Source: Cystobacter fuscus
GTDB lineage: Bacteria > Myxococcota > Myxococcia > Myxococcales > Myxococcaceae
Reading direction: 5' to 3'
Length of the DNA: 64,000 bases
NCBI RefSeq assembly: GCF_002305875.1
Contig: NZ_CP022098.1
Location: 1,550,001 to 1,614,000, forward strand
Made by a program: the position numbers and the translations under genes. The notes beneath the pieces were generated by a model that worked only from the letters and a program-made list of their open reading frames with translations, had not been told where the DNA came from and did no database searches. Of this stretch, positions 4,296 through 59,722 are shown one piece after another. Position 1 is the stretch's first letter, and each line of letters begins with the position of its first letter.

Positions 4296-5621
4296 TTACA
4301 TCCCCGTGGGCCACGTGTCCGCCGCGTCCTCCTCCTCGTGGCCCGCGTCCTGGTCGAGCGGTTGCACGGCGCTCGTGATGTCGTAGTGCAGGACCGCGTC
4401 GAACTGCGCGGGTAGATCCGCGAAAAAATAGTGGCTGTGGCGTTCGCTATGGGGGGCGTAGATGACGCCAATGGCCCGCTCCAGCCGCCGCTCGCGCAGG
4501 GCGGAGCCCGCCTCGCCCAGGTCCTCCATCCTCAACAGGAAGGCGGGCTGGCCCACCTCGTGGAAGAGCGCCTCGTAGCTGTCCGGCAGCGCGGGCCGCA
4601 CCCGCCTTCTGCGGCCCGGGGTGTCCCACTCGCGCGCGGCGAGGACGGTGCCCGTGTAGGTGGTGAATCCCACATTGAACGTCTCCCGCCCATGCCGCTC
4701 GCGCAGGAGCTGGCCCAGGTTCAGCTCCCCTTGGTCCCCCATCTGCGTGGCGCGGGCATCGCCCAGATGCGAGTTGTGGGCCCAGATGACCAGGCGCGCG
4801 GGCGCCCCGTGGCGCCGACCGAGGTACTCGGACAGGGCATCCGCGGTGTCCGCCATGTGGGTGTCGCGCAGGTTCCACGACTCATCCCGCCCGGCGAACA
4901 TGACCCGGTAGTACGCCTCCGCGTCCCGCGCCAGCCGGGCATTCTGTTCCGCGTGGAAGTGCGCGTCCTGCTCGCTCGCTCCGTCCCGGACCTGGCGCTC
5001 GCGCAGCTCCCTCAATTGCGCCAGCACCTCCTCCTCACAGCTGTCCGCGTAGCCGTAGGTGGTGGCGTGTCCATAGGACTGGGCGTCCTCGCCGAAGCGG
5101 TCGAAGCACGCGTACCGGTCCCGGGCACGCGCCGCCGCCACCGGGTCGCGCGCTTCCAGGTAGCGCACCACCTCGCGCATGGAGGCGTGCAGGCTGTAGA
5201 GATCCAACCCATAGACGCCTGCTCGCTCCCCCTCCGGCCGAGCGGCGTTGTGCGTGCGCAGCCACTCCACGAATGCCCGCATCTCGGCGTTGCGCCACAT
5301 CCACCGGGGAAAGCGCTGGAAGTCGTCCAGGGCCTCTTCCACCCGCGTGTCCCGGGTTCCGCCCCGGACGTATTGATGGAGCCTCAAAGCATCCGGCCAG
5401 TCCGCCTCCAGCGCCACCGCGTTGAAGCCCCGCTCGGCGATGAGCCGGCGGGTGAGCACGGCGCGCGCCTGGTAGAACTCATGGGTGCCATGCGTGGCCT
5501 CGCCCAGCAGCACGAATCGCGCGTCCCTAATGCTCTCCAGTAGCGCGTCGAAGTCCGTTTCCTCCCCTTTCAGCTCCAAAGCGGCGGTGCGCACTCCATC
5601 AATCAATCCGGACGATTTCAT
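4296..5621 (-). CDS. Erythromycin esterase family protein
   Basis: The protein is 441 residues long, the normal size for the family. It carries LLGEATHGTHEFY (Glu41, His44, His47), EADWPDA and, further on, WAHNSHLGDA, the conserved blocks of erythromycin esterase-like hydrolases; the Glu/His pair around residues 41-47 and the later His are the catalytic residues in characterised Ere enzymes. Ere enzymes open 14-membered macrolide lactones, but most environmental homologues have no known substrate, so resistance is not implied. No signal peptide is visible, suggesting a cytoplasmic enzyme. Its start codon faces the biosynthetic cluster at 5914 across a 292-base gap; the MopE-motif lipoprotein follows 28 bases downstream. 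Confidence 0.85.
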   Translation of the reverse strand: MKSSGLIDGVRTAALELKGEETDFDALLESIRDARFVLLGEATHGTHEFYQARAVLTRRLIAERGFNAVALEADWPDALRLHQYVRGGTRDTRVEEALDDFQRFPRWMWRNAEMRAFVEWLRTHNAARPEGERAGVYGLDLYSLHASMREVVRYLEARDPVAAARARDRYACFDRFGEDAQSYGHATTYGYADSCEEEVLAQLRELRERQVRDGASEQDAHFHAEQNARLARDAEAYYRVMFAGRDESWNLRDTHMADTADALSEYLGRRHGAPARLVIWAHNSHLGDARATQMGDQGELNLGQLLRERHGRETFNVGFTTYTGTVLAAREWDTPGRRRRVRPALPDSYEALFHEVGQPAFLLRMEDLGEAGSALRERRLERAIGVIYAPHSERHSHYFFADLPAQFDAVLHYDITSAVQPLDQDAGHEEEDAADTWPTGM

Positions 5622-5913
5622 ACATTGTCAAAATGTGGTCACACGCGCCCATCCGCTCAGATTGGAAAACTAGACTGGCGGGACGGCGGGCGGAAAGACA
5701 CGCGCCTCCCTTTTCGTGGACTTCGTCCAGGTAGAAAGGCAAGCAAGATGGCGAGGCAGCAACTAGCACAGGGCGAGTAGGCCAAGGACCCCGTGGTGTA
5801 CAGGTTGGTCACGGCGCCGGGCGTCCACTCACGCTTACTGCTCTGTCCAGGAAAACGTATTTTACATTCCTTCATGTCCTTGAGATGGTGGGCGCCGCCA
5901 GACCGGAGAAGCC
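5622..5913. promoter_or_regulatory. Divergent intergenic region before the radical-SAM cluster
   Basis: This 292-base gap must hold the promoters for the esterase (minus) and the cluster starting at 5914 (plus). It is clearly less GC-rich than its flanks. I see no convincing -35/-10 pair. Two tiny plus-strand frames lie here: 5633-5734 (33 codons, arginine- and serine-rich, no ribosome site) and 5748-5780 (10 codons, preceded by AAAGG). Neither has independent support as a gene. GGAG a few bases before 5914 is the ribosome site of the radical SAM gene. Confidence 0.4.
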
Positions 5914-7257
5914 ATGAGTCAGACATCAAGATCGTGTGTGCACATCGTGCAGCTTCCCTTTCCCTCGTTGGGCGAGCCTCACGAGGCCGTGCGCGACTAC
6001 TACCGGGATTACAGCGCCAGGTTCGCGAGCGAGCTGGCCGGTTATTTCATTCCCGAAGGCTCGCTCTGGGAGTTGCCGCTATGGGTTGCCCACATCGCGG
6101 GAATGCTCAAGGAGATTGGCTATGAGGTGAACCTGGTCGACATGTCCAAGGTCCCGGCGGAGGCGGAGGCGTGTGCAAGGTTCCTGCTGGAGGAGACGCG
6201 GCCCGGAAGCGTCTTGATGATGTCGCCATTGGCCCAGAACTTCGATCTGGCGCTGTCGGTGTCCCGGACGCTGAAGGCGGAGGGCCGTCAGACGGTGCTC
6301 GGGGGGAACATGGCCACGCTGGCCGGGCCCGAGGATGCCTCGCACGTGCATCGCGGACAGGTCTCCGCGCGGGTGCTCGCGGAGATCCTCCAGAAGAAGC
6401 TGCCGGGACTCACGGAGGTGGCTGGCCTCAAGGGGGGTATTGGCCGGCTCGACTCCAAGCCCGACTACACGCTGCTGACCGGGTACAAGGGGCGGGTGCC
6501 CCTGCTGCGCCTCAACGCCAGCCATGGCTGCCTCTACGCGTGCAGCTTCTGTGGGGACGCCTGGTCGCGGCAGTTGCACGTGGTGGACCCGGCGGTGCTC
6601 GAGCACGAGGTCCAGCAGTTCGAGCGGCTCTTCCCCGAGGCGCGCCTCATCTACATCGGGGACAAGACCTTCGGTCAGTCCCACGAGGCCGTGAAGAACC
6701 TGCTGGCGGTTTTCGCGAACCGTCCCCACTACAAATTCATCGTCCAGACGCACGTGCTGAACGTGAACGAGACGGTCATCGAGGCCATGCGCAGGCTGGG
6801 CGTGGTGGTGGTGGAGATGGGCTTCGAGACGGCCGACTCCGAGGTGCTCAAGGAGTCGAGCAAGCCGAACCTCGACGTGGACATCTACGCCAGGCGCATC
6901 CAGGCGCTCTCCGCGGCGGGGATGAAGGTCGTGCTCAACGTGCTGGGAGGTCTGCCCCAGGAGCGGGCCGCCTCGCATGAGCTGACGATGCGCTTCCTCC
7001 AGGACTCGCGCAACGAGGCGTGGCTGTACAACCTCTATAACTTCGTGCCCTATCCCCTGACGCCGCTCTTCCCGGTGCTCCGCGAGCGCATCCATGACTG
7101 GAATTTCGCCCACTGGCGCGAGGACGGACCGCCGGTCTTCCAGCCCTATCACCAGACGGTGGAGCAGAGCTGGAATCAGTTCCTGGAGAAGGTCCACGTG
7201 GCCCACTCGCTGATCAGCCGCCCCAGTGTTTCCGCGTCCATGGAGGCCGCGTCATGA
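5914..7257 (+). CDS. B12-binding-domain radical SAM protein
   Basis: A 447-residue cytoplasmic Fe-S enzyme. Residues about 50-185 resemble a cobalamin-binding (Rossmann-like) domain. The radical SAM core follows: the 4Fe-4S motif is C206-LYA-C210-SF-C213, after RLNASHG, and later blocks (IYIGDKTFG, VVEMGFETAD, NVLGGLPQE) are typical of the family. Members that bind B12 often methylate unactivated carbon or phosphorus, or rearrange carbon skeletons; the reaction here is unknown. It is the first gene of the cluster, and its stop overlaps the next start by four bases (ATGA), so translation is probably coupled. The absence of the DXHXXG cobalamin motif leaves open that the N-terminal domain no longer binds B12. 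Confidence 0.85.
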   Translation: MSQTSRSCVHIVQLPFPSLGEPHEAVRDYYRDYSARFASELAGYFIPEGSLWELPLWVAHIAGMLKEIGYEVNLVDMSKVPAEAEACARFLLEETRPGSVLMMSPLAQNFDLALSVSRTLKAEGRQTVLGGNMATLAGPEDASHVHRGQVSARVLAEILQKKLPGLTEVAGLKGGIGRLDSKPDYTLLTGYKGRVPLLRLNASHGCLYACSFCGDAWSRQLHVVDPAVLEHEVQQFERLFPEARLIYIGDKTFGQSHEAVKNLLAVFANRPHYKFIVQTHVLNVNETVIEAMRRLGVVVVEMGFETADSEVLKESSKPNLDVDIYARRIQALSAAGMKVVLNVLGGLPQERAASHELTMRFLQDSRNEAWLYNLYNFVPYPLTPLFPVLRERIHDWNFAHWREDGPPVFQPYHQTVEQSWNQFLEKVHVAHSLISRPSVSASMEAAS

Positions 7258-8306
7258 GCAATCCCTATCTCGAGCTGCTCGATCAGGTCAGCCCCGCGAC
7301 CTTCGCCCGGGATCCGAGGCCGGGCTGGGCGGGCCCGGGCACGCTCTTCGGCTGCCGGGCGGTGGACCTCTCCGAGGTGCCAGCAGGGTGTCAGTACGTC
7401 GCGGCGGGCATCCCTTTCGATGGGACGGCCAGCTCCCGGCCCGGCGCCTCGGAGGGCCCCCGCGCCATCCGCCAGGCCAGCCTCGTCTTCTCGTCGTACC
7501 TGGACAGCCTGGGTGAGCACGAGATGCTCGACACGCGGACCGGCTCCGTCTTCCGGTACGCCAAGGCGAACGTGGTGGACGCGGGGGATCTGCACGTGTA
7601 CCCCACCGATACCCGGCGCAACTTCCAGGCCGTGGCCACCGAGGTCGAGCTCCTGGCCCGCTCCGGCGCCACGCCCGTGTTGCTCGGGGGGGATCACTCG
7701 ATTGGCTTCGCCACCTTCGTCGGCGTGCAGCGCGCCCTGAGCGCCCGGCAGCCGCAGTCTCGGCTGGGACTCATCCAGATCGATCACCACTTCGACTTCG
7801 GCGCGAACAGCACCATCCACGGGCCGCTCTATCATGGCTCCAATGCCCGGCGGATCAGTGAGCTGCCCTCCATGCAGCCGGACCGCATGGCCTTCGTGGG
7901 CGCTGGGAGCATCACCCGCAAGGGACAGTTCGATGGGCTGTTGAAGGCCGGCAGCCACATCGTGCCCGCCCGGGAGATGCGCGCCCGTGGGGTGGCCGCC
8001 GCGCTCGAGCCGGTGGTCGCCGCCTTTCGCCGCAACTGCACCGCCGTCCACCTCTCCATCGACATCGACGTCCTCGACTGCTCCGTCGCCCCCGGTACCG
8101 GCAATGTCACCATCGGCGGGCTCTCCGGTGGCGAGCTGATGGATGCCGTGGAGGTCATCCGGCAGCTCCCGTTGGCGGGCATCGAGATCGTGGAGGTGTC
8201 GCCCCGCTACGATCCCACCGGGCGCACGCCGCAGATCGCCGCCCAGCTTCTCTTCGAGCTGCTCTTCCGCGAATACCGCAAACCGGAGGCGTCGGCGATC
8301 CCATGA
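7254..8306 (+). CDS. Arginase/agmatinase-fold ureohydrolase
   Basis: A 350-residue protein of the ureohydrolase superfamily, which hydrolyses guanidino groups to urea using two Mn ions. All expected metal ligands are present: GGDHS (His148), D177-x-H179-x-D181 in the DAHxD position (the usual Ala is His), and D270-x-D272 in SIDIDVLD, followed by the conserved APGTG. The usual Pro after DxDxxD is Cys. Thus it appears catalytically competent. Substrate cannot be read from sequence: free arginine, agmatine, another guanidino compound or peptidyl arginine (as in the RiPP peptide arginases) are all possible. It overlaps both neighbours by ATGA, placing it inside the biosynthetic operon rather than in polyamine metabolism. 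Confidence 0.85.
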   Translation: MSNPYLELLDQVSPATFARDPRPGWAGPGTLFGCRAVDLSEVPAGCQYVAAGIPFDGTASSRPGASEGPRAIRQASLVFSSYLDSLGEHEMLDTRTGSVFRYAKANVVDAGDLHVYPTDTRRNFQAVATEVELLARSGATPVLLGGDHSIGFATFVGVQRALSARQPQSRLGLIQIDHHFDFGANSTIHGPLYHGSNARRISELPSMQPDRMAFVGAGSITRKGQFDGLLKAGSHIVPAREMRARGVAAALEPVVAAFRRNCTAVHLSIDIDVLDCSVAPGTGNVTIGGLSGGELMDAVEVIRQLPLAGIEIVEVSPRYDPTGRTPQIAAQLLFELLFREYRKPEASAIP

Positions 8307-9214
8307 CATGGAGTTCCAACGAGGCGCGGGTGGCGCTCGCCGGGCGGCTCCGGGAGGACCACCCCGAATGGGAGGCCGACGAGCCCGTGCTCATGGGGGG
8401 CGGGCTGGAGTTCTTCGTGTTCCGCATCCAGTCGGCGCGGCAGGGCCCTCTGGCCATCAAGGTGCCGCGCGCGCCGATCTTCATCAACGACAACGATCCG
8501 CGTGTCGTCGCGCGCGATCTGTTGGAACAGGAGGCCGCCCTGATCTCCCGCGCCGCGCGTGGCGGGATACCCGTGCCGCGGCTGGTGGCGCTGGAGCTGG
8601 GACGCGAGCCCCTCGACTACCTCGTCCTCGAGTATGTCGAGCACGCTGGCGGTGAGCCCTCTCCCCGTGCCCTGGGCGAGCTGGTGCGCCGCCTGCACTC
8701 GCTCCCCGAGCTTCCCTCCCGGCCGCTGGTGGCGCAGCAGGGACGTCCGCTGGCCGAGCTGCTCGCGGAGCGCATCCACCGGCGCGCGCGCGTGGTGGAG
8801 CGGCTCGCGGGCGTCCGTCTGGCGTTGCCCGGGCCCGAGTGGCTGGCTGACGTGCTACACGGCTCCGAGCGGCCGCGCGCGGTGCTGCACATGGACGTGC
8901 GTCCCGCGAATGTCCTCGCCCGGGAGGGCCAGGTGCTCGCGCTGCTGGATTGGTCCAATGCGCTGGTGGGAGATCCCGCGCTGGAGCTGGCGCGGATCGC
9001 CGAGTATGGGCTCGCCGGACCGGAGTTCCTCGCCGCGTACCACGGCCTCGAGCCACTCCCACCCCCGCCCGCGAGGTTGGAGCTGCTCTATCGGATCGAT
9101 ACGGCGGTGATGCTGGCGGTCGTCTTCCTCTCCGAGCAGCCAGACGCAGAGAAGGCGCGGCCCCAGGTGGCCCGGGTGGTGGAGCTGTGCGGCCGGTTGG
9201 AGGGGACGCGATGA
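8303..9214 (+). CDS. APH-fold small-molecule kinase (aminoglycoside phosphotransferase family)
   Basis: A 303-residue kinase. ATP-binding Lys53 sits in LAIKVPR. The catalytic loop is H196-x-D198-x4-N203 (VLHMDVRPANVL) and the metal-binding Asp216 lies in LLDWSNALVGDPALE, so the active site is intact. The family phosphorylates hydroxyl groups of small molecules (aminoglycosides, choline, homoserine, biosynthetic intermediates). Here the genes on both sides overlap by four bases, so the kinase likely acts on a pathway intermediate or protects the producer by phosphorylating the product. The following gene encodes a phosphatase-fold enzyme, which would fit a phosphorylate/dephosphorylate self-protection step; that is inference. 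Confidence 0.8.
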   Translation: MTWSSNEARVALAGRLREDHPEWEADEPVLMGGGLEFFVFRIQSARQGPLAIKVPRAPIFINDNDPRVVARDLLEQEAALISRAARGGIPVPRLVALELGREPLDYLVLEYVEHAGGEPSPRALGELVRRLHSLPELPSRPLVAQQGRPLAELLAERIHRRARVVERLAGVRLALPGPEWLADVLHGSERPRAVLHMDVRPANVLAREGQVLALLDWSNALVGDPALELARIAEYGLAGPEFLAAYHGLEPLPPPPARLELLYRIDTAVMLAVVFLSEQPDAEKARPQVARVVELCGRLEGTR

Positions 9215-9843
9215 CAGACACCCGTCCAACCGTCGTGCTCCTGGTGCGTCATGCGGACGTGCACAACCCGCGGCAGGTCTTTTATGGGCGGCTCCCCGGC
9301 TTCCGCCTGAGCGACCTGGGCTTGAAACAAGCGAACTTCCTCGCGGAGCATCTGGCCTCCGAGCCCATCCGCGTCTTCTACACCAGCCCCCTGCTCCGGG
9401 CGCGGCAGACCGCGGCCGTGCTCGCGCGCAGGCATCCGGGGATCGCGATCCACCGGGTCATGGATCTGCAGGAGGTCCGCACGCGCTGGATGGGTGCGCC
9501 CGTGGACGAGGTCCCCATTTTCGGCAACCTGTACGAGCCGCCCCGCGACCCGGGTGACGAGACGATTGCCCAACTGGCCGAGCGCGTGTCCCAGACCCTG
9601 CTGCGTATCGCGCGCAAGCACCCCGGTCAGGTGGTCTGCTGCGTCAGCCATGGAGATGCCATTTCCAGCGCCAACTCGTTGTTCCGGGGGCTGCCTCCGG
9701 AGCTGGTGAGCATCCGCGGCGACTACAGCGCGCAGCAATGCTCGGTGACCCGGCTCACCTTCACGCCGTCCTCTGAGTTGCCTGTGTTGGAGTACCGCGA
9801 TGTGATGGCCGAACTGGCTCCAGAACTCAGTGTGCGCCGATGA
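9211..9843 (+). CDS. Histidine phosphatase family protein
   Basis: A 210-residue protein starting at the ATG at 9211, overlapping the kinase stop. The phosphohistidine motif is L-V-R13-H14-A near the N-terminus, followed by LSDLGLKQA, YTSPLLRARQTA and the second catalytic His147 in CCVSHGD, all in the order expected for the phosphoglycerate mutase-like (branch 1) family. It therefore looks like an active phosphomonoesterase or mutase. It is the fourth of four ATGA-linked genes. A likely role is removing a phosphate from a pathway intermediate, possibly that placed by the adjacent kinase. Confidence 0.85.
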   Translation: MTDTRPTVVLLVRHADVHNPRQVFYGRLPGFRLSDLGLKQANFLAEHLASEPIRVFYTSPLLRARQTAAVLARRHPGIAIHRVMDLQEVRTRWMGAPVDEVPIFGNLYEPPRDPGDETIAQLAERVSQTLLRIARKHPGQVVCCVSHGDAISSANSLFRGLPPELVSIRGDYSAQQCSVTRLTFTPSSELPVLEYRDVMAELAPELSVRR

Positions 9844-9966
9844 CCGCGCTCACTGCTCGAGATATGAGCGCCTCTGTCGTTCGCTTGACGCTCCTGGTGT
9901 CGATCACTAGTGTCGCGAGCCGCGATAATCAAATTTGTCAGACTTCGTGTTGGCCAAGGAGTGAGC
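9844..9966 (+). promoter_or_regulatory. Intergenic gap with possible internal promoter and a 36-codon frame
   Basis: This 123-base gap is distinctly less GC-rich than the genes around it. TTGACG near 9882 with TAGTGT 17 bases later is a possible weak promoter. AAGGAG at 9956-9961 is the ribosome site of the GNAT gene at 9967. A 36-codon frame runs 9864-9974 and overlaps the GNAT start; its C-terminal half is rich in Ser, Thr and Cys (ICQTSCWPRSEHE), which is why it is noted as a possible RiPP precursor. Its third-codon positions are not GC-rich, so chance is more likely. Confidence 0.35.
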
Positions 9967-10872
9967 ATGAATGAGGCGCACGAGCCCGAATCCGATGCGT
10001 TTCCAACGGTGCGCAGGGCCGAACCCGAGGATCGCTCCGCCATCCTCGAACTCATGCGCTCGGTGTATGGCGACTACAATCCCTACTTCGAGGAGCTGGA
10101 TGCCTGGCTGGCGGACGACGTCGGCCAGCTCGGTGTCGCGGTGCTCGACAACAAGGTGGTGGGGTTTGGCAAGCTGACCCGTCTGGCGCCCGAGGAGTGG
10201 TGGATCGAGAGCATCGCCGTGGACAAGGCATACCGGCGCCGGGGCGTGGCCAGGACCCTCGGCTTCTATGGTCTTGCCCTCTGGCATGAGAAGGGCTCCG
10301 GGAGCCTGCGGGCACTGATTGCGAGCTATAACGATCCGAGCTTCAGCTATGGCGAAGCCTTTCAATTCCACCGGTCGGCCCGGTACGTCCACCTGCTCGC
10401 CTCTCCGGAGGGCACGAGCCATGGCTTCCGCCCGCTGACCGCGGCGGATAGGGATTGGGCGCATGAGCGTCTGACCCGCTCGTCCCTCTGGCAGCACACC
10501 GCGGGGCTGGTCGAGTGCCGCTGGAAATGGCAATCCCTCACCCCCGAATTCCTCTCCAGGCTGATCGACGCGGGCGAGGCCTTCTCCTGGCGGGACGGGG
10601 AGGGGGTGGCCTGCATGTGGCGCCGTCGGGGCGTGAAGGAGCCCGAGCTGCGCATCTGGTTCGCCGGTGCTCCGGGGAACCTCGGAGAGATGGCGCGGGA
10701 GTTCCGCGCGTTCGCGGCCACGGAGCTGCGCGACTTCGGACCCGAGCCCCCCGTCATCCACTGGCGGGTGCCCGACGTGCCCGAGGTCATCGAGGCGCTC
10801 GAGGCCAGCGGCTTCCGCAAGCGCGAGAGCTTCGAGAACATCTTCTACCTCGTGGAGTATCGGAAATCCTGA
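9967..10872 (+). CDS. GNAT family N-acetyltransferase
   Basis: A 301-residue protein; the start at 9967 is chosen because AAGGAG lies six bases upstream. The acetyl-CoA pyrophosphate loop is Y89-RRRGVAR (motif A), preceded by WWIESIAVDKAYR. The protein is about twice the length of a simple GNAT domain; residues 160-301 probably form a second, degenerate GNAT-like domain, ending in YLVEYRKS. Acyl transfer to an amine of the product or of a precursor is the likely role. It lies 41 bases before the LanB-like gene on the same strand. Substrate unknown. Confidence 0.8.
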   Translation: MNEAHEPESDAFPTVRRAEPEDRSAILELMRSVYGDYNPYFEELDAWLADDVGQLGVAVLDNKVVGFGKLTRLAPEEWWIESIAVDKAYRRRGVARTLGFYGLALWHEKGSGSLRALIASYNDPSFSYGEAFQFHRSARYVHLLASPEGTSHGFRPLTAADRDWAHERLTRSSLWQHTAGLVECRWKWQSLTPEFLSRLIDAGEAFSWRDGEGVACMWRRRGVKEPELRIWFAGAPGNLGEMAREFRAFAATELRDFGPEPPVIHWRVPDVPEVIEALEASGFRKRESFENIFYLVEYRKS

Positions 10873-10913
10873 GCCCTCCGAGCCGGGGAGCGCCTGATGG
10901 AGTGGAGGCAGAG

Positions 10914-13304
10914 ATGAGCGAGCGTCAGTCGTCGAGTGGGTGGACCGAGCACCTGGCCCCGTTGACTCCAGGCTGGTCCGTGTGGCGGCAGATGGGAGTG
11001 CGCGGGGCGGGCTTCCCGGCGGACCTGGCGGAGCGGGTGCGGCAGCCGGAGAGTGCCCGGGCCGCGGACGAGTTGCTGCGGCGGGAGGCGGACCTGCGCT
11101 CCCAGCGGCTCAAGGCCTCCGCGGTGCAGGAGGCGCTGGCTCCGGAGCGTGCCCGGCTGGAGGAGCGGTTCGCGGCGGAGGCCGTGCGCGTGGGTCAGGC
11201 GCTGCGCGACGTGGCCCGTCTGCCCGAGTTCCGTGAGGCCGTGGTCTGGCAGAACCGCCAGGCGCTGGCGAGTGCCCTGGATGTCCTGCTGCGGCGGGAC
11301 GCCACCCTGCGCGACAGCCACACCCGCCAGAAGGAGGAGCTGGTCTCCAAGTATCTGCTGCGCTACTGCCTCAAGAACGACACCATTGGCTTCTTCGGCC
11401 CGCTGGGCTGGGGGCGCTTCGAGCCCGGGGTGGACGGGGTCGAGCTCCAGCCCGGTCCGGAGCTGCTCAGCCGCCGGCAGACGCTCTTCGAGCACTGGTG
11501 CATCGACACCCTCGCCGAGCGGCTCTCGGCGGACGCGCGGCTGCGCCCGTGGATCGCCCCGCGCGCGCTTCCCGTGGTGCGCTTGGAGGGGACGCGCGCC
11601 GTGCCACTGATGGGCGAGCCCGTGGAGCTCAGTGGCGCCGCGGCTCGCGCCCTCACGCTGTGCGACGGCGAGCGGACGGCCCGGGAGATCGCCTCGCTGC
11701 TGCGGCGGGAGTTCGCGCTCGAGGTGCCAGGCGAGGCCGAGGCATGGGCCCTCCTGGAGGAGCACCGGCAGCAGGGGTGGATCCTCTGGACGCTGGAGTT
11801 GCCCAACATCGAGTCGCACCCCGAGCGCGCCCTGCGCCGGCTGCTGGAGCGGATCGACGACGCGGCGCTGCGCGCGGAGGTGCTCGCGCCGCTGGACGAG
11901 CTGGAAGCCCTGCGGGAGGAGGTGGCGCGCAGCGCGGGAAACGCCGAGGCGCTCGCGCGCTCTCTCGATGCGCTCAATGACGCGTTCACCGCCCGGACGG
12001 GCGAGAAGGCACAGCGCCTCGAGGGCCAGACGTACGCGGGCCGCACGCTGCTCTACCAGGACTGCAACCGGGATGTGTCGCTCACGCTCGGCCCCGGGGT
12101 GCTCCAGCGCCTGGGCGCACCGCTCGGGCTGCTGCTGGACAGCGCGCGCTGGTTCACCTTCCAGGTCGGTGCGCGCTACCTGGCCTCCTTCGAGCGCGTG
12201 TTCGACGAGCTGCGCGCCGGCGCCCCCACGGTGGACTTCCTGATGTTCCACCTGGGCGTGAGCGAGTTCTTCCCCTTCATCTCCCACCGCTCGGGTCCCT
12301 ACCTCAAGCCGGACGTGGCCAAGGATCTGATCGCCGAGCTGCAAGCGCGCTGGACCCGGCTGCTCAACGTGAAGCCCGGGGAGCAGCGCATCCAGCGCTC
12401 CTCCGCGGAGCTGGCCGCGGCGGCGCGGGATCTGTTCGCCGCGCCCGGGCCGGGTTGGCCCGGGGCCCGCTACCATGCACCGGACCTGATGATCTCCGCC
12501 GCGAGCCCCGAGGCGCTGCGGCGCGGGGAGTTCTTCGCCGTGCTGGGCGAGCTGCACATCGCCCTCAACACGTTGGAGTCCCCCGTCTTCTTCTTCCAAC
12601 ACCCCCGGCAGGAGGAGTTGGTGCGCGCGCTGGAGGCGGACATGCCGAGCCCGCGTATCTCTCCGGCGGTCCCCAAGGATCGCGCCACCCGCGCGGCCAT
12701 CGTGCCCTTCAACCGCAACGCGATGGAGTTCGTCTTCGACACGACGCGCTCGTGGCGCCCGGCCTCCCAGGTGCTGTCGGTGGGCACGCTGGTGCTGGAG
12801 CGGGTGGACGGTCAGCTCCAGGTGCGCTCGCGCGATGGGCGCTGGCGGTGCCACGTGATGGAGTTCTACGACTGGCTGCTCAGCATCCAGTTCGCGGGGG
12901 AGATGCACCTGCTGCCCCCCCAGGCGCACTCCCCGCGGGTGACCATCGACGACATGGTGGTGAACCGGGAGACGTGGCACTTCGCCACCGCGCAGCTACC
13001 CTTCCTGCGGCTCAAGGATGCGACGACGCGGTTCCTGGAAGCGCGGCGCTGGGCCCATCAGCACGGCCTGCCGGACCGGGTCTTCTACAAGACGACCAAC
13101 GAGCGCAAGCCCTTCTTCCTGGACCTTTCCAGTCCCCTGTCGCTCAAGTCCTTCTTCACGATGGCGCGGGCTTCCGAGGACGTGGTCATCACCGAGATGC
13201 TGCCGACCACGGAGCAGCTCTGGCTCACGGACGCGCGGGGGCGGGCCTATACGAGCGAGCTGCGCATGGTCATGGTGGACGGGCAGCCCTGGCGCCCTCG
13301 TTAG
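10914..13304 (+). CDS. Stand-alone lantibiotic dehydratase (LanB-like) family protein
   Basis: A 796-residue protein starting at 10914 behind GGAGG (10904-10908). It contains family blocks such as KYLLRYCLKNDTIGFFGP (about residues 144-161), YAGRTLLYQDCNRD and, near the end, ITEMLPTTEQLWL…YTSELRM. Full LanB enzymes (about 1000 residues) use glutamyl-tRNA to glutamylate Ser/Thr of a precursor peptide and then eliminate glutamate with a separate C-terminal SpaB_C domain. This protein ends where that domain would start, as in split dehydratases and in the PEARL enzymes that add amino acids to a scaffold peptide from aminoacyl-tRNA. No LanC cyclase or SpaB_C partner is visible nearby. Which chemistry it does cannot be told from sequence alone. 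Confidence 0.75.
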   Translation: MSERQSSSGWTEHLAPLTPGWSVWRQMGVRGAGFPADLAERVRQPESARAADELLRREADLRSQRLKASAVQEALAPERARLEERFAAEAVRVGQALRDVARLPEFREAVVWQNRQALASALDVLLRRDATLRDSHTRQKEELVSKYLLRYCLKNDTIGFFGPLGWGRFEPGVDGVELQPGPELLSRRQTLFEHWCIDTLAERLSADARLRPWIAPRALPVVRLEGTRAVPLMGEPVELSGAAARALTLCDGERTAREIASLLRREFALEVPGEAEAWALLEEHRQQGWILWTLELPNIESHPERALRRLLERIDDAALRAEVLAPLDELEALREEVARSAGNAEALARSLDALNDAFTARTGEKAQRLEGQTYAGRTLLYQDCNRDVSLTLGPGVLQRLGAPLGLLLDSARWFTFQVGARYLASFERVFDELRAGAPTVDFLMFHLGVSEFFPFISHRSGPYLKPDVAKDLIAELQARWTRLLNVKPGEQRIQRSSAELAAAARDLFAAPGPGWPGARYHAPDLMISAASPEALRRGEFFAVLGELHIALNTLESPVFFFQHPRQEELVRALEADMPSPRISPAVPKDRATRAAIVPFNRNAMEFVFDTTRSWRPASQVLSVGTLVLERVDGQLQVRSRDGRWRCHVMEFYDWLLSIQFAGEMHLLPPQAHSPRVTIDDMVVNRETWHFATAQLPFLRLKDATTRFLEARRWAHQHGLPDRVFYKTTNERKPFFLDLSSPLSLKSFFTMARASEDVVITEMLPTTEQLWLTDARGRAYTSELRMVMVDGQPWRPR

Positions 13305-13371
13305 GCAGGGCACGCGCTCCGCGTCGATATCGAGCCCCCCCGCGGCGGGCGCCTCCATTAGATTGGCCCCC

Positions 13372-14454
13372 ATGGGTTCTTCTCGTGAGGAAGCGCGGGG
13401 GTCGGCCGCGCCATCGGGGCTCGTATCGGTGGTGCGCCTGCCCCATAGCTGGTTCATCCTCTGCACCTCGAGTGAGTTGGGCCACAAGCCCCTCGCCCGC
13501 ACGCTGCAGGGCTCGCCGCTCGTCCTCTTCCGCACCGCGGAGGGCAAGCCCGCGGCGCTCGCGGACCGCTGTCCCCACCGCAACGTGCCCCTGTCCCTCG
13601 GCCGCGTGGTGAACGGCCAGCTCCAGTGCGGCTACCACGGCTGGCGCTTCGACGCCTCGGGCCAGTGCCGCGCCGTCCCCGGCCTCATCGGCGAGCCCGA
13701 GGCGAAGAGCCGCTGCGCCGCCTGGCACGCCACGCGCGAGCAGGAGGGCTTCGTCTGGGTGTACTCCACCCCCGGCGTCGAGCCCGCGCACGAGCCCTAC
13801 CGCTTCCCCCTGCTGGACACCCCGGGCTACAGCACCGTGCGCCGCACCCTGCGCGCCGGGGGCTCGCTCCATGCTCTGCTGGAGAACACGCTCGACGTGC
13901 CCCACACCTCCTTCCTCCATGGCGGGCTGTTCCGCACCGAGAAGCAACGCCATGAGATCGACGTGGTGGTGCGCCGGGGTGCCCAGCAGGTGGAGGCCGA
14001 GTACATCGGCGAGCCCCGGCCCGAGGGGCTCGTGGGCCGCCTGCTCGCTCCGGGCGGCGGGGTGTTGCAGCACTTCGACCGCTTCCTCATGCCCTCCATC
14101 GCCCAGGTGGAGTACCGCCTGGGCGCCGACAGCCACCTGATGGTCACCTCGGCCATGACGCCCGCCGAGGACTGGGACACCTGGGTGTACGCCGTCGTCA
14201 CCTTCCGCCTGCCCCTGCCTCACTGGCTCATCAAGCCCTTCATCACCCCCGTCGCCCTCCACATCTTCAAGCAGGACGCCCGCATCCTCGAGCGCCAGAC
14301 GGAGACCATCCGCCGCTTCGGCTCGGAGACCTTCGCCTCCACCGAGGTCGATGTGCTCGGCCCCTCCATCCTCCGCCTCATGCGCCAGGCCGGGCGTGAA
14401 CAGCCTCCTGGTTCATTGGAGGTCCAAGAGACCCGGCTGAAAATGCAGGTGTGA
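13372..14454 (+). CDS. Rieske non-heme iron oxygenase
   Basis: A 360-residue oxygenase alpha-subunit-like protein starting at 13372. The Rieske 2Fe-2S ligands are C67-x-H69 (DRCPHRN) and C86-x2-H89 (CGYHGW). The mononuclear iron site is N172-x2-D175-x2-H178-x4-H183 (ENTLDVPHTSFLH). Overall it resembles the vanillate O-demethylase / pheophorbide a oxygenase branch, which hydroxylates, demethylates or desaturates. It needs an electron-donating reductase, not found in the window. It follows the LanB-like gene by 67 bases on the same strand and may be the last tailoring gene of the cluster, or an independent unit. Confidence 0.85.
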   Translation: MGSSREEARGSAAPSGLVSVVRLPHSWFILCTSSELGHKPLARTLQGSPLVLFRTAEGKPAALADRCPHRNVPLSLGRVVNGQLQCGYHGWRFDASGQCRAVPGLIGEPEAKSRCAAWHATREQEGFVWVYSTPGVEPAHEPYRFPLLDTPGYSTVRRTLRAGGSLHALLENTLDVPHTSFLHGGLFRTEKQRHEIDVVVRRGAQQVEAEYIGEPRPEGLVGRLLAPGGGVLQHFDRFLMPSIAQVEYRLGADSHLMVTSAMTPAEDWDTWVYAVVTFRLPLPHWLIKPFITPVALHIFKQDARILERQTETIRRFGSETFASTEVDVLGPSILRLMRQAGREQPPGSLEVQETRLKMQV

Positions 14455-14578
14455 CGCGGAGCGGCTGTCGGGTGACGGACAGTCGTCTCGCCTCCAGGAA
14501 GGACGGATTTTTCACCAGCACACAGAACCGGGGGGGCGGGGATGGCCGCCTGCCAGGGTGAATGGTCACCCTGAGGAC

Positions 14579-15181
14579 ATGCGGCCCTCGCTTTCGCCTG
14601 AAAAGCGCTTCTTCGCGCAGTCCGTGGATGCCTTGTTCATCCGTGCCCTGGGGCCGCACCTGTCGCGGGAAGGGCGGCGTCGGCTCAAGGACGCGGGCCT
14701 GGACCTGAGCGAGCCCCTGCGGCCGTGGTACACGCTGGAGCAGTGGAAGGCGTTCCTGCGGGTGGCGGCCAAGGACGTCTTCCCGGGGGCGTCCGAGCGC
14801 GAGGCCTGGTCCTCCCTGGGCGAGCGCTACCTGCAGGGCTTCCGGCTGACGGCGCAGGGGCGCGCGAGCATGTCGCTCGTCACGCGGCTGGGCCCCCGGC
14901 ATACGCTCGAGCGCGTGCCGCACAACATCCGGGCCGGCAACAACTTCAACGAGGTCCGCGTCGAGGAGCTGGGCACCCACGCCGCCACGCTGTGGATGAA
15001 GGACATGGCCGCGGACAATCCCTACTTCGCCTGTGGCTTCCTCGCGGAGACGCTGCGCGCCGCGGGGGCCGGGGACATCCACGTGGAGCCCGTGGCCTGT
15101 GATGGCACGTCCGCCACCTTCCGGCTCACCTGGACGCACGCCGCCACCCGCCCGGTGGCCGGCCGCTCCATGGGGCGCTGA
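14579..15181 (+). CDS. DUF2378 (TIGR02265) family protein
   Basis: About 200 residues. I use the ATG at 14579 (MRPSLSPEKRFFAQS…); a GTG at 14558 would add seven residues. Phrases such as FAQSVDALFIRALG, YTLEQWKAFLRVAAKDVFPG, RYLQGFRLTAQGRA, LERVPHNIRAGNNFNEVR and DNPYFACGFLAETLR match the Myxococcales-restricted DUF2378 family, which is present in many paralogues per genome and has no known function. It seems soluble and cytoplasmic. Presence of this family is one of the taxonomic clues for the window. Confidence 0.8.
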   Translation: MRPSLSPEKRFFAQSVDALFIRALGPHLSREGRRRLKDAGLDLSEPLRPWYTLEQWKAFLRVAAKDVFPGASEREAWSSLGERYLQGFRLTAQGRASMSLVTRLGPRHTLERVPHNIRAGNNFNEVRVEELGTHAATLWMKDMAADNPYFACGFLAETLRAAGAGDIHVEPVACDGTSATFRLTWTHAATRPVAGRSMGR

Positions 15182-15506
15182 GGGACTCCGCGGGACGCCG
15201 GGCCTCAGCCGTGCCCGAACTCGTTCTGGGCGCGTGGCGAACAGGCGCTTGCCGGGCAGGTGTGCTCTTCCAGGAGCACCTCGGCCGCCGGGTTCGCGTA
15301 CTCACAGAGGAAGTCCTCGCGGTCAGGTGGGGTTTCACCTCCTGACGCATGGCGTCTGCCACCGCGAGTGAATGGCGGCGAAACAACAGTCGTGGGAGGC
15401 CGGACGTGGCGTGCAGGACGTGTGTCCAACCCTTGTCCCGGGATGCGACGCCGGGGGCGTGCGTTGACGCCCGACCGCAACCGATGTTCAGTCTGAGGGA
15501 GCACCC
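15182..15506. other. Intergenic gap with a possible short minus-strand gene remnant
   Basis: No clear gene. On the minus strand an open frame ends at 15205 with a Cys-containing, protein-like tail (REDFLCEYANPAAEVLLEE … NEFGHG), but no start codon with a ribosome site gives a convincing length, so it may be a fragment or chance. GGGAG before 15507 is the ribosome site of the helicase gene. Confidence 0.3.
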
Positions 15507-18500
15507 ATGGCCCCACAGATCGCCCTCGCCTTCACTCCCGCCGTGACCGCGCACCCGGCTCTCGGCTCCTTCCATCCGGTGGTCCAGGCGTGGTTCGCCG
15601 AGCGGCTGGGCGAGCCCTCGCGTCCCCAGGTGGAGGGCTGGCCGCTCATCCAGGCCTGGGAGGACGTGCTCATCGCCGCGCCCACCGGCAGCGGCAAGAC
15701 GCTCACCGCCTTCCTCGCCGCGTTGGATCGGCTCTTCCGCCTGGCACTGGAGGGGGCGCTGCCGGATCGCACGCAGGTGCTGTACGTGTCGCCCCTCAAG
15801 GCGCTGGGCAACGACGTGCAGAAGAACCTGCTCCAGCCGCTGGAGGAGCTGCTGCGGCGCGCGCGGGCCGCGGGCTATTCGCCCCAGGAGTTGAGGGTGG
15901 AGGTGCGCACCGGGGACACGTCGGCGGCGGATCGCGCGCGCATGGTGCGCCGGCCTCCGCACATCCTCATCACCACGCCCGAGTCGCTCTACCTCTACCT
16001 CACGGCGGATCGCGCGCGGGCCACGCTGCGCGGCGTGCGCACCGTCATCGTGGACGAAATCCACGCCCTGGCGCGAGACAAGCGCGGCAGCCACTTCGCC
16101 CTGTCGCTCGAGCGGCTCAAGGCCATCACCGAGGTGCGTCCCCAGCTCATCGGCCTGTCGGCGACGCAGAAGCCGCTGGAGGCCATCGCCGCCTTCCTCA
16201 CGGGCGAGCGCGCCGAGGCGTGCCGACTGGTGCAGGTGGGGCACCAGCGGCCGTGGGATTTGCGGGTGGAGATTCCCGACGCGGAGCTGGGCTCGCTGGC
16301 CACGCACGAGATGTGGGGCCAGGTGTATGACCGGCTGGTGGCACTGGCGGGGGAGCACCGCACGACGCTCGTCTTCGTGAACACGCGCAAGCTGGCCGAG
16401 CGCGTGGCGCATGACCTGTCCGAGCGCCTGGGGACGGACAAGGTGGCGGCGCACCACGGCAGCATGTCGCGGGAGATGCGGCTGTCGGCCGAGGAGCGGC
16501 TCAAGGCGGGACAGCTCTCGGTGATGGTGGCCACGGCGTCGCTGGAGCTGGGCATCGACGTGGGCAACGTGGACCTGGTGGTGCAACTGGGCAGCACGCG
16601 CTCCATCTCGGTGCTGTTGCAGCGGGTGGGCCGCGCGGGTCACTACAAGGGTGGGGTGTCCAAGGGCGTGCTCATCGCCATGACGCGCGATGAGCTGATG
16701 GAGTGCGTGGCGCTGCTGCACGCCGTGTACGAGGGGGACCTGGACGCGGTGCGCATGCCGGAGAAGCCCCTGGACGTGCTGGCGCAGCAGGTGGTGGCGG
16801 CGTGCGCGTGCGAGGAGTGGGACGAGCGCGCCCTCTATGGCCTGTTCCGCCGGGCCTGGCCCTACCGTGACCTCACCTGGGAGGAGTACGAGAAGGTGCT
16901 GGAGACGCTCTCGGAGGGAGTGTCGCTGCGGCGCGGGCGCGCGGGCGTGCACCTGCACCGGGACCGGGTGAACCAGCGGCTCAAGGCGCGCCGGGGCGTG
17001 CGCATCACCGCGCTCACCAATGGCGGCGCCATTCCGGACACCTTCACCTTCAACGTGGTGGCCGAGCCCGAGGGCAAGACGGTGGGCACGCTGGACGAGG
17101 ACTTCGCGGTGGAGTCCTCGCCCGGGGACATCTTCCTGCTGGGCACGACGGCGTGGCGCATCCAACGGGTGATGGGCTCGTCGGTGATGGTGGAGAACGC
17201 GCACGGCCAGCCGCCCACGGTGCCCTTCTGGCGGGGCGAGGCCCCGGGCCGCACGGACGAGCTGAGCGTGCACGTGGGCAGGCTGCGCGAGGAGCTGCTC
17301 CAGCGCTCGGACGCGGCGCGCTTCCTGGAGAAGGAGCTGAAGCTGACGCCGCCCGCGGTGGACGCGCTGATGGCGTACCTGCGCGCGGGGCTCCAGGTGC
17401 TCGGCGTGGTGCCGAGCCACCGCACCATCGTGGCCGAGCGCTTCTTCGACGAGGCGGGCGGCATGCAGCTCATCCTCCACGCGCCCTTCGGCAGCCGCGT
17501 CAACCGGGCCTGGGGGCTCGCGCTGCGCAAGCGCTTCTGCCGCACCTTCGACTTCGAGCTCCAGGCGGCGGCCACCGAGGACGGCCTGCTGCTGTCCCTG
17601 GGCGAGCAGCACTCCTTCCCCTTGGAGGACATCTTCTCCTTCCTCACGCCCGACAACGTGGAGGAGGTGCTGGTGCAGGCGGTGCTCCAGGCGCCGCTGT
17701 TCGGCACGCGCTTCCGGTGGAACGCGACGCGGGCGCTGTCCCTGTCGCGCTTCTCCGCGGGCAAGCGCGTGGCGCCCAACCTCCAGCGCGCCCGGAGCGA
17801 GGACCTGCTCGCGGCGGTGTTCCCCGCGCAGGTGGGGTGCCAGGACAACCACGGCGGCGCGGACGTGGAGCTGCCGGACCATCCGCTCGTGAATCAGACG
17901 ATGCAGGACTGTCTGCGCGAGGCCATGGACATCGACGGTCTGCGCGAGGTGCTGCGGGGCATGAAAGAGGGCCGCATCCAGCTCGTCGCCCGGGACGTGC
18001 CCGAGCCGAGCGTGTTCGCCCACCAGATGGTGAACAGCCAGCCGTACACCTTCCTGGACGACGCGCCGGCCGAGGAGCGCCGGGTGCGCAACGTGGTGCT
18101 GCGTCGCACGCTGCCCGCGGAGGACTCGGCGGCCTTCGGCGCCCTGGATGCGAGCGCCATCGAGCAGGTGGTGCGCGACGCGGCCCCGCCCCTGCGTGAC
18201 GAGGACGAGCTGCACGACGCGCTCCTGCAACTGGTGCTCCTGCCCGAGGCGCGGGTGCCGGGCGGCTTCGTCAGGAGCCTCATGGCGCAGCGGCGGGTGG
18301 CGTGGATGGAGGTGGGGGACGCGCGCTACCTCGTGCCCGCCGAGCGGCTGCGCGCCCTGCGCGCCCTGTTCCCCGACGTGCTCCTACAACCGGCGCTGGA
18401 GCCTCTGGCGGGGGACAAGCCGGTGGAGCGCGACGCGGCGGTGGCCCTGGTGGTGCGCGGCTGGATGGAGCTGCTGGGCCCCACGACGGCGGCGGAGCTG

Positions 18501-41088: not shown

Positions 41089-42369
41089 TCAATCGTGCCG
41101 CTCGATCGGGACCTCCACGCCCGTGGCCTCCCAGACGTTTCCCGCGGCGGACAGCTGCGTCTGTGTGCTCACGAGCACGGCACAGTCGAAGACCGTCTGG
41201 GCGCCGAAGACGTTGTTGCGCACCACCATGCCTGGAAGGCTCGCTCCGCCCGAATGTCCGAGGTTCACGATGCAACTGCCGCGGTCGAGACGGTTGCGCT
41301 CGATTCTCACGTCGCGCGTCGCTCCGTCCTGCTGGTTCACGAAGACCGCCGCGCCGGCTTCTTCACCCGGACCGTGCACATTGCTGTCGTAGATGCCGAT
41401 GTCGCGCCCCTCGAAGACGCTGATGCCGTACTGTGCGCCCACCGGGTCGAGCGCGTGAATCCACGAGCTCTCCACCCGCGCGCCGGACTTCAGGTTCATC
41501 CCGACCACCACCCCGTGCACGTCGAGCCGGCGCGCGGTGAAACCTCCGCCCATCACCCCCCACTGGAGCGTCGAGGACTCCTCGGCGAAGACCTCGATGT
41601 CTTCCAGCAAGACGCCCGTCGCCCCCGCCACGCTGATGATGCCGTCAATCTCGCGTGGCACCGGCGCGTGGACCACGCATCGGCGAACGGTGACGTCATT
41701 CGCGCGGATGATCAGCCGACCGCGAATGTCCCGGTCCTCGAGCACGGTGCCCGGTGTGTCCAGCACGACGTCCCCCTCGTGCCGGACCAGGGACGAGCCC
41801 GCGGGAACTCCGGTGTTCCGCGGACCGGGGAGGGCCGGGTTGGCCCGGCAGGAGACGTTGGCCGGACATGCCTTGCACGCGCCGTCCTCGCACCGGAAGC
41901 CATCCGCACATTCGATGGGCTCGGTGCACTCGGGCTGCGCGAGCCCGAGATTCTCGAGCACGGAGAGGTGGCCGAAGCTCCGCGTTCCTTCGCTCCAGGA
42001 GCCGGCCATCGGGGCTGGAAGGCCGTCTCGGGTCACACGAACGAGTGAAGCGGGGCCGCGGTGGCCCGGTGCCGATTCGGCGCGCATCTCGGCCTGGGCG
42101 GGGAGGGCGAGCGTCCGTGCCGATGGCTCCAGTGCATAGGTCATTCCGACCGACCAGCCCTGCACGCCGAGCTCCCGGATCGAGACCGTCTCCTCTCTTT
42201 CGAGCGCACCCGGCGGAAGGGTCACCCGGACGCGGCCATCGCGGGAGGTGACGGTGCCCCCTTTGCTCCCGATGACGCGAACGTCGGGCCGCCCACGTGC
42301 ATCGAATAGACCCTCGCCGCACGCACCCGCGAGCAAGGCGAGCGCCGCGACGAGGAGGGGAGCACGCAT
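41089..42369 (-). CDS. Right-handed beta-helix lipoprotein (fourth gene of sigma/caspase operon)
   Basis: A 426-residue protein. Signal peptide MRAPLLVAALALLAGAC (Cys17); then a ZU5/autotransporter-like stretch (VIGSKGGTVTSRDGRVRVTLPPGAL), a small Cys-rich segment (CADGFRCEDGACKAC) and a beta-helix from about residue 200 (LIIRANDVTVRRCVV, GIISVAGATGVLLEDIEV). The start overlaps the caspase-gene stop as TGATG, so it is translationally coupled to it. The helix shares the NTGVPAGS and 'RA-V-I-R' signature with the protein at 39383, suggesting an old duplication. Likely surface-exposed; ligand unknown. Confidence 0.8.
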   Translation of the reverse strand: MRAPLLVAALALLAGACGEGLFDARGRPDVRVIGSKGGTVTSRDGRVRVTLPPGALEREETVSIRELGVQGWSVGMTYALEPSARTLALPAQAEMRAESAPGHRGPASLVRVTRDGLPAPMAGSWSEGTRSFGHLSVLENLGLAQPECTEPIECADGFRCEDGACKACPANVSCRANPALPGPRNTGVPAGSSLVRHEGDVVLDTPGTVLEDRDIRGRLIIRANDVTVRRCVVHAPVPREIDGIISVAGATGVLLEDIEVFAEESSTLQWGVMGGGFTARRLDVHGVVVGMNLKSGARVESSWIHALDPVGAQYGISVFEGRDIGIYDSNVHGPGEEAGAAVFVNQQDGATRDVRIERNRLDRGSCIVNLGHSGGASLPGMVVRNNVFGAQTVFDCAVLVSTQTQLSAAGNVWEATGVEVPIERHD

Positions 42370-59584: not shown

Positions 59585-59722
59585 GGATGTTCCCCCCTGG
59601 GTGCGCACTTGGGCGCATCGGCTGCCCGGCTACTGTGGCAAGGCGGAAGAGGCGGAACAAGAGCCTACGACTGAGCGGCTCGTGCGAGCGTTTCTGGACA
59701 CCAGCAGCACGACCGCTGACGA

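Follow-up and report, generated by a model that had tools for sequence, protein, structure and literature searches.

Some LanB-like proteins are glutamylation domains without the elimination domain SpaB_C (PF14028, Lant_dehydr_C), and two of these, TbtB and GodF, work with a separate elimination partner. Others are peptide aminoacyl-tRNA ligases (PEARLs). Published accounts of PEARLs list residues of the adenosine triphosphate (ATP) site and the transfer RNA (tRNA) site, namely R34, Y205, R208, Y426, R429, D558, E575, H577, R715, F755, K763, E813 and R815 of BhaB7 and R10, E542, E801 and R803 of TglB (PMC11962472, PMC12945691). SnaE of Stackebrandtia nassauensis, known from threopeptin, is described as adding threonine to the product of a non-ribosomal peptide synthetase (NRPS), and no precursor peptide figures in that description (PMC11212132). 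Here we analyze P0001, a LanB-like protein of 796 residues encoded in a 64-kb stretch of DNA (hereafter the window) from the 12.35-Mb single-contig genome of Cystobacter fuscus (G000:C1:1550001-1614000). P0001 very probably belongs to the PEARL-type aminoacyl-tRNA ligases, an activity that we infer, and the explanation that fits the locus best as a whole, namely a PEARL-type ligase that carries out no Ser/Thr dehydration, is likely to be correct.

The reading frame of P0001 runs from an ATG at 10914 to a stop at 13304. The protein matches the Pfam family Lant_dehydr_N (PF04738) at E 1.2e-31 with 110.1 bits against a cut-off of 28, and a profile search of the genome placed a second PF04738 stretch, profile positions 576-647 of 649, at window positions 12924-13148. 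The C-terminus lies about 50 residues past the end of the LanB N-terminal domain, which is the usual starting point of SpaB_C. The first-pass annotation of this DNA had described 796 LanB-like residues stopping where SpaB_C begins, and matches that reach profile position 647 of 649 confirm this. Its reading frame is intact and the gene is present in three species of the genus; a fourth species (G034) gave no ligase match. It evolves under purifying selection, with dN/dS of 0.365 against the sister species G033 (locus L036) and 0.302 against the sister species G032 (locus L037). The gene and its putative functional residues are located as follows.

10914..13304, + strand: probable PEARL-type LanB-like aminoacyl-tRNA ligase P0001, 796 aa (PF04738, E 1.2e-31; AlphaFold2 predicted local distance difference test score (pLDDT) 93.0, predicted template modelling score (pTM) 0.92; residue panel)
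11001..11003, + strand: R30, at the position of TglB Arg10 and BhaB7 Arg34 (PMC12945691); R in 35 of the 35 rows with a letter, the column being a gap in 39 of 74 rows, mostly from row starts set too late
11361..11363, + strand: R150 in Y147-L-L-R150, predicted tRNA 3'-CCA contact common to PEARLs and LanBs (BhaB7 Tyr205/Arg208; PMC11962472)
11526..11798, + strand: RiPP recognition element (RRE) or PqqD-like winged helix, residues 205-295 (VIA Z 7-8 against the RRE domains TbiB1, PqqD and TruD)
12033..12044, + strand: Y374 and R377, putative tRNA loop (BhaB7 Tyr426/Arg429), in 64/74 and 73/74 small rows
12483..12485, + strand: D524, putative ATP-site ligand (BhaB7 Asp558, TglB Glu542); D in 74/74 small and 0/22 full-length rows, S in the split control
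12549..12557, + strand: E546-L-H548, putative ATP site (BhaB7 Glu575-x-His577; residue panel)
12966..12968, + strand: R685, putative adenine contact (BhaB7 Arg715, position approximate); in 74/74 small and 2/22 full-length rows, R in the split control
13083..13109, + strand: F724 to K732 (BhaB7 Phe755 and Lys763, with the equal spacing of 8; residue panel)
13257..13265, + strand: E782-L-R784, putative phosphorylation motif (BhaB7 Glu813/Arg815, TglB Glu801/Arg803), 50 residues past K732 as in BhaB7

Three groups make up the residue panel: 74 small LanB-like proteins, 22 LanBs of full length from the same order, and, as a control, a real split LanB (L186). Among the small rows, which are those of the quick tree described below, 20 represent the window and genomes of its family, 5 are from Streptomyces plasmids, and 49 are from 76 relative loci, 70 of which yielded a usable frame; the panel frames were verified by BLAST. 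The small rows come from myxobacteria, Acidobacteriota, Chloroflexota, Actinomycetota, and others. The split control is a LanB of 911 aa from a genome of the family, encoded beside two stand-alone PF14028 proteins (L186:6225-11059, - strand).

By position and spacing, the counterparts of the published PEARL residues in P0001 are R30, Y147, R150, Y374, R377, D524, E546, H548, R685, F724, K732, E782, and R784. The spacing F-8-K-50-E-2-R is that of the published BhaB7 positions 755-763-813-815, and the two Y-3-R pairs are likewise identical (PMC11962472, PMC12945691). The ATP-site residues D558, E575, H577, E813, and R815 of BhaB7 correspond to D524, E546, H548, E782, and R784, while its tRNA 3'-CCA residues Y205, R208, and R429 correspond to Y147, R150, and R377, which are kept in 67, 74, and 73 of the 74 small rows. 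A comparison of these sites had been proposed in the first-pass annotation; made by published numbers and spacing, it finds the ATP-site and tRNA-site residues of PEARLs present in P0001.

Only part of this set separates PEARL-like proteins from LanBs. R150 is found in all 22 full-length LanBs as well, and R150, R675, W688, and D737 are common to all panel groups. F724 is invariant among the small rows, and position 732 is K in 65 and R in 9 of them, L in 21 of the 22 full-length LanBs, and K in the split control. E782, also present in every small row, is common to nearly all groups. H548 occurs in 74/74 small rows and 4/22 full-length LanBs and is replaced by A in the split control; R784 occurs in 74/74 and 0/22 and is replaced by I; E546 occurs in 70/74 small rows and is replaced by P. 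In a 61-row alignment (A4), D524, E546, H548, E782, and R784 are invariant. As judged from the panel, the discriminating set is D524, H548, and R784, plus E546. The pattern at D524, H548, and R784 argues for ATP-dependent activation of the PEARL kind and against a glutamylating dehydratase.

AlphaFold2 modeled P0001 from 61 sequences at a mean pLDDT of 93.0 and a pTM of 0.92. All 11 Foldseek matches at E <= 0.001 are LanB chains (TbtB, MibB, MadB, GodF, and NisB), with TbtB first at 8e-26, and VIA-align gave Z 21.5 over 677 residues for TbtB and Z 19.2 for GodF. By Pfam, Foldseek, and VIA-align, P0001 has the LanB glutamylation-domain fold without SpaB_C, as is expected of a PEARL. Residues 205-295 on their own are matched by winged-helix domains, the best being a methyltransferase domain (Z 10.8 over 85 residues). 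Within them a PqqD-like stretch, residues 234-290, reaches E 2.5e-4 with the PqqD model, under the curated cut-offs, and is borne out by the structural model. The structure prediction that the earlier annotation had suggested as a check thus matches LanBs along its length and keeps the RRE. A single-sequence search of solved structures with P0001 gave no match, while profiles reached TbtB and GodF. Weak structural rows (tubulin ligase, RimK, and DD-ligases) were not used as evidence.

In the proposed mechanism, ATP would be bound in an ATP-grasp-like site formed by D524, E546, H548, K732, E782, and R784, and the carboxylate of the acceptor would be phosphorylated to an acyl phosphate. An aminoacyl-tRNA, held at its 3'-CCA end by R150 and its neighbors, would then attack the acyl phosphate through its amino group. 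Cleavage of the tRNA ester by water would leave the acceptor one amino acid longer.

The relatives of P0001 were taken as the best 80 of 445 from a scan of species genomes, which amount to 76 distinct loci. With four probes at E < 1e-20, NRPS-like or polyketide synthase (PKS)-like matches were found in 57 of the 76 within at most 10 kb of DNA on either side; four of the 57 rest on a single probe (L084, L113, L123, and L136, the last a 29% identical PKS match only). The other 19 loci had no such match, eight of them lying on stretches shorter than 13 kb. The same probes gave no match in the 64-kb window, and P0001 is therefore not encoded among NRPS/PKS genes as SnaE is. The NRPS/PKS-associated relatives stand near P0001 in the tree, of which SnaE itself is not a row. 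A quick tree of 77 rows was made, and the clade of P0001 was checked in a careful tree of 42 of those rows. There P0001 falls in a clade of 16 rows (bootstrap 95, SH-aLRT 95), 15 of them myxobacterial and one a Rhodospirillales bin. All 16 are without NRPS/PKS in the flanking DNA examined, some of which is short (L041 5.7 kb, L048 8.2 kb, and L094 12.8 kb), and this label needs 5 changes on the tree vs 14.3 in shuffles. An Archangium violaceum member (L039, same locus as L097), for which the longer stretch L097 shows an adenylation domain at a distance of about 9 kb, was left out of the careful tree; when its row is included, NRPS-like DNA lies in the flank of 1 of 17 clade rows. It is rather unlikely, although the best of the alternatives, that the acceptor is the product of a distant NRPS/PKS cluster of the same genome on which the ligase acts in trans. 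The setting of the 57 relatives favors such a SnaE-type role, and the genome has aminotransferase stretches within two open frames that are very long (3896 and 3491 aa), but neither the 64 kb around the gene nor the flanks of its 16-row clade hold an NRPS/PKS match.

Circularly permuted ATP-grasp-like proteins of two kinds are encoded beside some members of the clade, on both sides in L040 and together with a KBL-like pyridoxal phosphate (PLP) enzyme in the eight loci L048-L055. The first kind scores 27.4 bits in Pfam against a curated cut-off of 32, the second has no Pfam match, and profile comparison links the two with probability 99.5. L048 shows only the second kind. As a group, L048-L055 combine the KBL-like enzyme, the two homologous ATP-grasp-like kinds, and a PEARL-like ligase; five of these loci also have a family that matches M28 peptidases. 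The other clade members, the window included, have no such ATP-grasp-like neighbor in the DNA examined. A search of the genome for this partner with two queries returned one weak match (E 1.1e-4) from one of them, the blank second query being uninformative.

Other gene arrangements were seen among the relatives. L057:5186-11249, L058, and L059 have two divergent PEARL-like genes around an unknown protein, with a Ser/Thr kinase and a DAO oxidoreductase adjoining. The Kitasatospora plasmid NZ_CP108290.1 carries a 38.5% identical homolog and six such places. Plasmid records searched for characterized PEARLs gave matches in Streptomyces, Kitasatospora, Nonomuraea, and Cupriavidus, none of them named PEARL. 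Two Streptomyces plasmids (L063:8740-16301 and L064:6719-14319) encode a PEARL-like gene, a free-standing adenylation domain, a threonine-dehydratase-like PLP enzyme, an acyl carrier protein, and a second PEARL-like gene; the PLP gene has matches in 19 of the 76 relative loci. L077 and L080, on the same contig (JAQBQE010000031.1), belong to a Myxococcales bin in which an HlyD-type protein and an HpcH/HpaI aldolase are encoded near five LanB-like genes.

The genes around the ligase in the window are the following.

5914..7257, + strand: radical SAM protein with a weak B12-binding match, membership uncertain (library matches; in 2/195 Myxococcota genomes at E <= 1e-50)
7254..8306, + strand: agmatinase/arginase-family ureohydrolase (PF00491, E 1.1e-64; in 2/96 genomes of the family at E <= 1e-40)
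8303..9214, + strand: APH-type phosphotransferase (PF01636, E 1.7e-19)
9211..9843, + strand: histidine phosphatase (PF00300, E 6.4e-31)
9961..10872, + strand: GNAT acetyltransferase, 41 bp upstream of the ligase (PF00583, E 1.4e-9)
10873..10913, + strand: junction at the place of the ArgD-type aminotransferase gene of the sister species, with an 11-base piece matching the start of that gene
13372..14454, + strand: Rieske oxygenase, 67 bp downstream of the ligase (PF00355, E 2.4e-22; PF19112)

The radical SAM, ureohydrolase, phosphotransferase, and phosphatase genes are joined by successive 4-base overlaps; after them come the GNAT, ligase, and Rieske genes, spaced 41 and 67 bases apart. G033 has the same genes in two halves parted by an opposite-strand SDR gene, and between GNAT and ligase it has a class III aminotransferase that is absent from the window (TIGR00707 argD, 448 bits vs a cut-off of 410). 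In G032 the ligase, 81% identical, stands alone in 20 kb without these neighbors. A Mesorhizobium plasmid encodes radical SAM, ureohydrolase, and phosphotransferase proteins 56, 59, and 36% identical to those of the window, with no LanB match in 31 kb. None of the 76 relative loci matches the radical SAM, ureohydrolase, kinase, phosphatase, GNAT, or Rieske protein of the window (tblastn, E <= 1e-6), and the ArgD-type protein is matched, at 31-34%, in three of them (L102, L107, and L148). Because of the occurrence of the radical SAM gene, the Mesorhizobium block without a LanB, and the lack of co-occurrence in the 76 loci, the first block looks like a separate unit. The GNAT, the ArgD-type aminotransferase, and the Rieske oxygenase are the likelier partners of the ligase. 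The earlier annotation had placed tRNA-dependent peptide chemistry in this cluster; the enzyme part of that claim is supported, and the tie to the cluster is weaker than it looks, since the neighbors are common to only one other species among those examined.

The acceptor of P0001 would most likely be a small amino-acid-derived molecule and not a ribosomal carrier peptide. That it is non-ribosomal and made without an NRPS has somewhat less than an even chance. It is perhaps of the arginine/ornithine type, because the ligase has a ureohydrolase, a GNAT, and a Rieske oxygenase beside it and, in the sister species, an ArgD-type aminotransferase as well. As a guess, the GNAT would acylate such an acceptor, the ArgD-type enzyme would transaminate it in species that have this enzyme, and the Rieske enzyme would oxidize it; the kinase and phosphatase might be a protection pair.

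The Mesorhizobium block belongs to a plasmid of Mesorhizobium sp. AR02 (L072:15007-18301), with a pitrilysin-family peptidase upstream and insertion sequences around. Directly upstream of the radical SAM gene of the window is an erythromycin-esterase-like protein (4296-5621, - strand; PF05139, E 4.9e-129), 96% conserved in L036. In G032, an N-terminal LDPNAK motif is common to two proteins encoded next to the lone ligase (L037:11547-13899, - strand), and one of them is a MACPF protein. Farther along the window are a caspase-domain protein (42369-43925, - strand) and a LysM/Het-C-like protein (57026-59608, - strand).

The search for a carrier peptide covered small open reading frames (ORFs), mostly outside called genes, at 5300-15700, which were compared with L036. 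In two of them the start, frame, and stop are all retained, one of 21 codons at 5763-5828 (- strand) and one of 31 codons at 15372-15467 (+ strand). A third with a TTG start (90 codons at 5657-5929, - strand) keeps its frame for 74 codons in L036 and then shifts. Differing codons are mostly amino-acid changes (2/3, 8/9, and 10/14 in the 21-, 31-, and 90-codon ORFs). Because this is unlike conserved genes, none of the three was taken as a precursor, and a co-encoded precursor was rejected; no carrier peptide encoded with the ligase, as in pearlin pathways, was found among these ORFs. The earlier statement that no precursor is visible agrees with this comparison. Rfam returned nothing at gathering score in window positions 5000-16000.

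Short Lys/Pro-rich ORFs are present in three relatives, L048:2519-2860, L052:14123-14275 (- strand), and L054:12767-12907 (- strand), with the ends KPGRPLE, KPGRKPVE, and KPGKPLE. These candidate carrier peptides lie upstream of an ATP-grasp-like gene in clusters with a PEARL-like gene, in three genera. The KPG..PLE pattern had no match in the genome in a search with only the AAG codon for the first Lys.

That P0001 acts in a pearlin-type pathway, on a ribosomal carrier peptide encoded elsewhere whose added residue is modified by the radical SAM and Rieske enzymes, as by TmoD in tmo, is unlikely. The RRE is kept, a radical SAM gene is nearby as is the B12 radical SAM gene tmoD in the tmo cluster (PMC9303977), and in the three same-clade clusters the Lys/Pro-rich ORF, whose last residues are KPG[RK](K)P[LV]E, precedes an ATP-grasp-like gene close to the ligase. 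Set against this are the amino-acid changes in the frame-keeping small ORFs near the ligase, the lack of a KPG..PLE match in the genome within that search, and the lack of a peptidase among the operon genes scanned with Pfam.

It is improbable that the ligase is a decaying leftover, kept without a function after loss of the aminotransferase from its pathway. The 11-base piece at the junction, read from the sequences, matches the start of the ArgD-type gene of G033 and suggests a deletion of that gene in the lineage of the window; the best other ArgD-type copy in the genome is 45% identical, and G034 gave no match to the ligase. Yet the frame is intact, dN/dS is 0.37 and 0.30, the active-site residues are kept, and three species of the genus have the gene.

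The elimination domain and the cyclase were searched for in the window and in the genome. PF14028 has no match in the 64-kb window, and the three PF14028 domains of the genome all lie outside it, inside open frames of 1091-1099 aa (full-length LanBs); no stand-alone SpaB_C was found in the genome. LanC (PF05147) has no match in the window. Its six matches in the genome lie elsewhere, and the one closest to the window is in a frame of 1126 aa about 59 kb before the left edge. The absence of LanC and SpaB_C genes from the window, claimed earlier, is borne out by these searches. A neighborhood without PF14028 is a mark of PEARLs in the published description (PMC11212132). A LanB would have SpaB_C fused or as a separate partner, with LanC and a lanthipeptide precursor in the cluster, and the window has neither PF14028 nor PF05147 and no convincing precursor. 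Across 145 genomes of the order, PF14028 is present in 46, and 64 of its 73 matches are in frames of at least 1054 aa; the frames of the remaining nine are shorter, and some of them lie at contig ends. G010, G046, and G047 (the last only 78% complete) carry a small LanB and no PF14028 match. The other option of the first-pass annotation, that P0001 is the glutamylation half of a split class I dehydratase with its elimination half encoded elsewhere, can draw on the shared tRNA-site residues and on TbtB, a glutamylation domain without SpaB_C, as the closest fold, but it is rejected as extremely improbable, given that every PF14028 domain of the genome is fused, that the order-wide survey includes small LanBs in three genomes without PF14028, and that the real split LanB lacks the PEARL ATP residues D524, E546, H548, and R784 present in P0001.

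P0001 is most likely a PEARL-type ligase because of its discriminating ATP residues, the BhaB7 spacing, the LanB fold with an RRE, and the failure of the split option. Several points count against this view. The match to PEARLs is by published residue numbers and spacing, not by alignment to TglB, AmmB2, BhaB7, or SnaE. The split LanB, too, has R150, R685, K732, and E782, and in profile alignment TbtB and GodF have Arg and Lys at the places of R685 and K732, so these positions do not discriminate. Around 524-548 the alignment is uncertain for the full-length and split LanBs, which are distant, and the TbtB and GodF profile alignments end before residue 782, which leaves the ExR motif of TbtB outside the comparison. 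Glutathione and glutathionylspermidine synthetases, which are ATP-grasp enzymes, match the model at Z of about 6, under the trust line of the tool. Characterized PEARLs have a co-encoded carrier peptide or NRPS, and the window has neither. The small-molecule acceptor leans on the absent precursor and on neighbors shared with one other species only. The PEARL option of the first-pass annotation therefore divides: the enzyme is upheld by its ATP-site and tRNA-site residues, its fold, and the context of its relatives, while the carrier peptide is not, as no convincing precursor was found and most relatives are NRPS/PKS-associated.

In a more speculative reading, somewhat less likely than not, the mostly myxobacterial PEARL clade would have a third way of life, outside ribosomal carrier peptides and NRPS/PKS, in which small amide metabolites might be made with free-standing partners. 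The partners may be the circularly permuted ATP-grasp-like proteins in several relatives and, here, the GNAT, the ArgD-type aminotransferase, and the Rieske enzyme. If this is true, the clade represents a peptide-making route on free small-molecule acceptors that is independent of ribosomal templates and NRPSs, and the use of aminoacyl-tRNA as an amide donor would be general in metabolism, extending past ribosomally synthesized and post-translationally modified peptides (RiPPs) and NRPSs; the myxobacterial operons are a direct place for testing this. PEARLs are already known as an enzyme class. Among titles and abstract openings, a level at which subscription literature was mostly outside the scope, no account of myxobacterial PEARLs and no description of a clade outside RiPP and NRPS settings was found. 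Genes like that of P0001 are annotated as lantibiotic dehydratases and are assigned to the wrong product class. A check of three positions for D, H, and R, as suggested by the panel, may be a simple way to tell PEARL-type ligases from real dehydratases, full or split.

Among known systems, TbtB and GodF are the closest solved folds and share the adenine-site Arg and the KP-motif Lys with P0001, and differ from it in having a separate elimination partner, for which its genome has no counterpart. The tmo cluster of Tistrella mobilis resembles the window in that the PEARL TmoB is near a radical SAM enzyme; as described, it also has a carrier peptide, a DUF692 protein, a methyltransferase, and a metalloprotease (PMC9303977), none of which is among the 20 window proteins scanned with Pfam. 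BhaB7/BhaBC-Trp, TglB, and AmmB2 act on a carrier or precursor peptide, of which the window shows no convincing example, and their published ATP-site and tRNA-site residues appear in P0001 at matching positions and spacing. SnaE, compared here by description and without an alignment, lies within an NRPS-PKS cluster, unlike the window gene. In likeness to P0001 it is annotated as a lantibiotic dehydratase, has no precursor in its description, and is a PEARL-like ligase acting on a non-ribosomal carboxylate (PMC11212132), and its NRPS/PKS setting is that of most relatives of P0001 (57/76).

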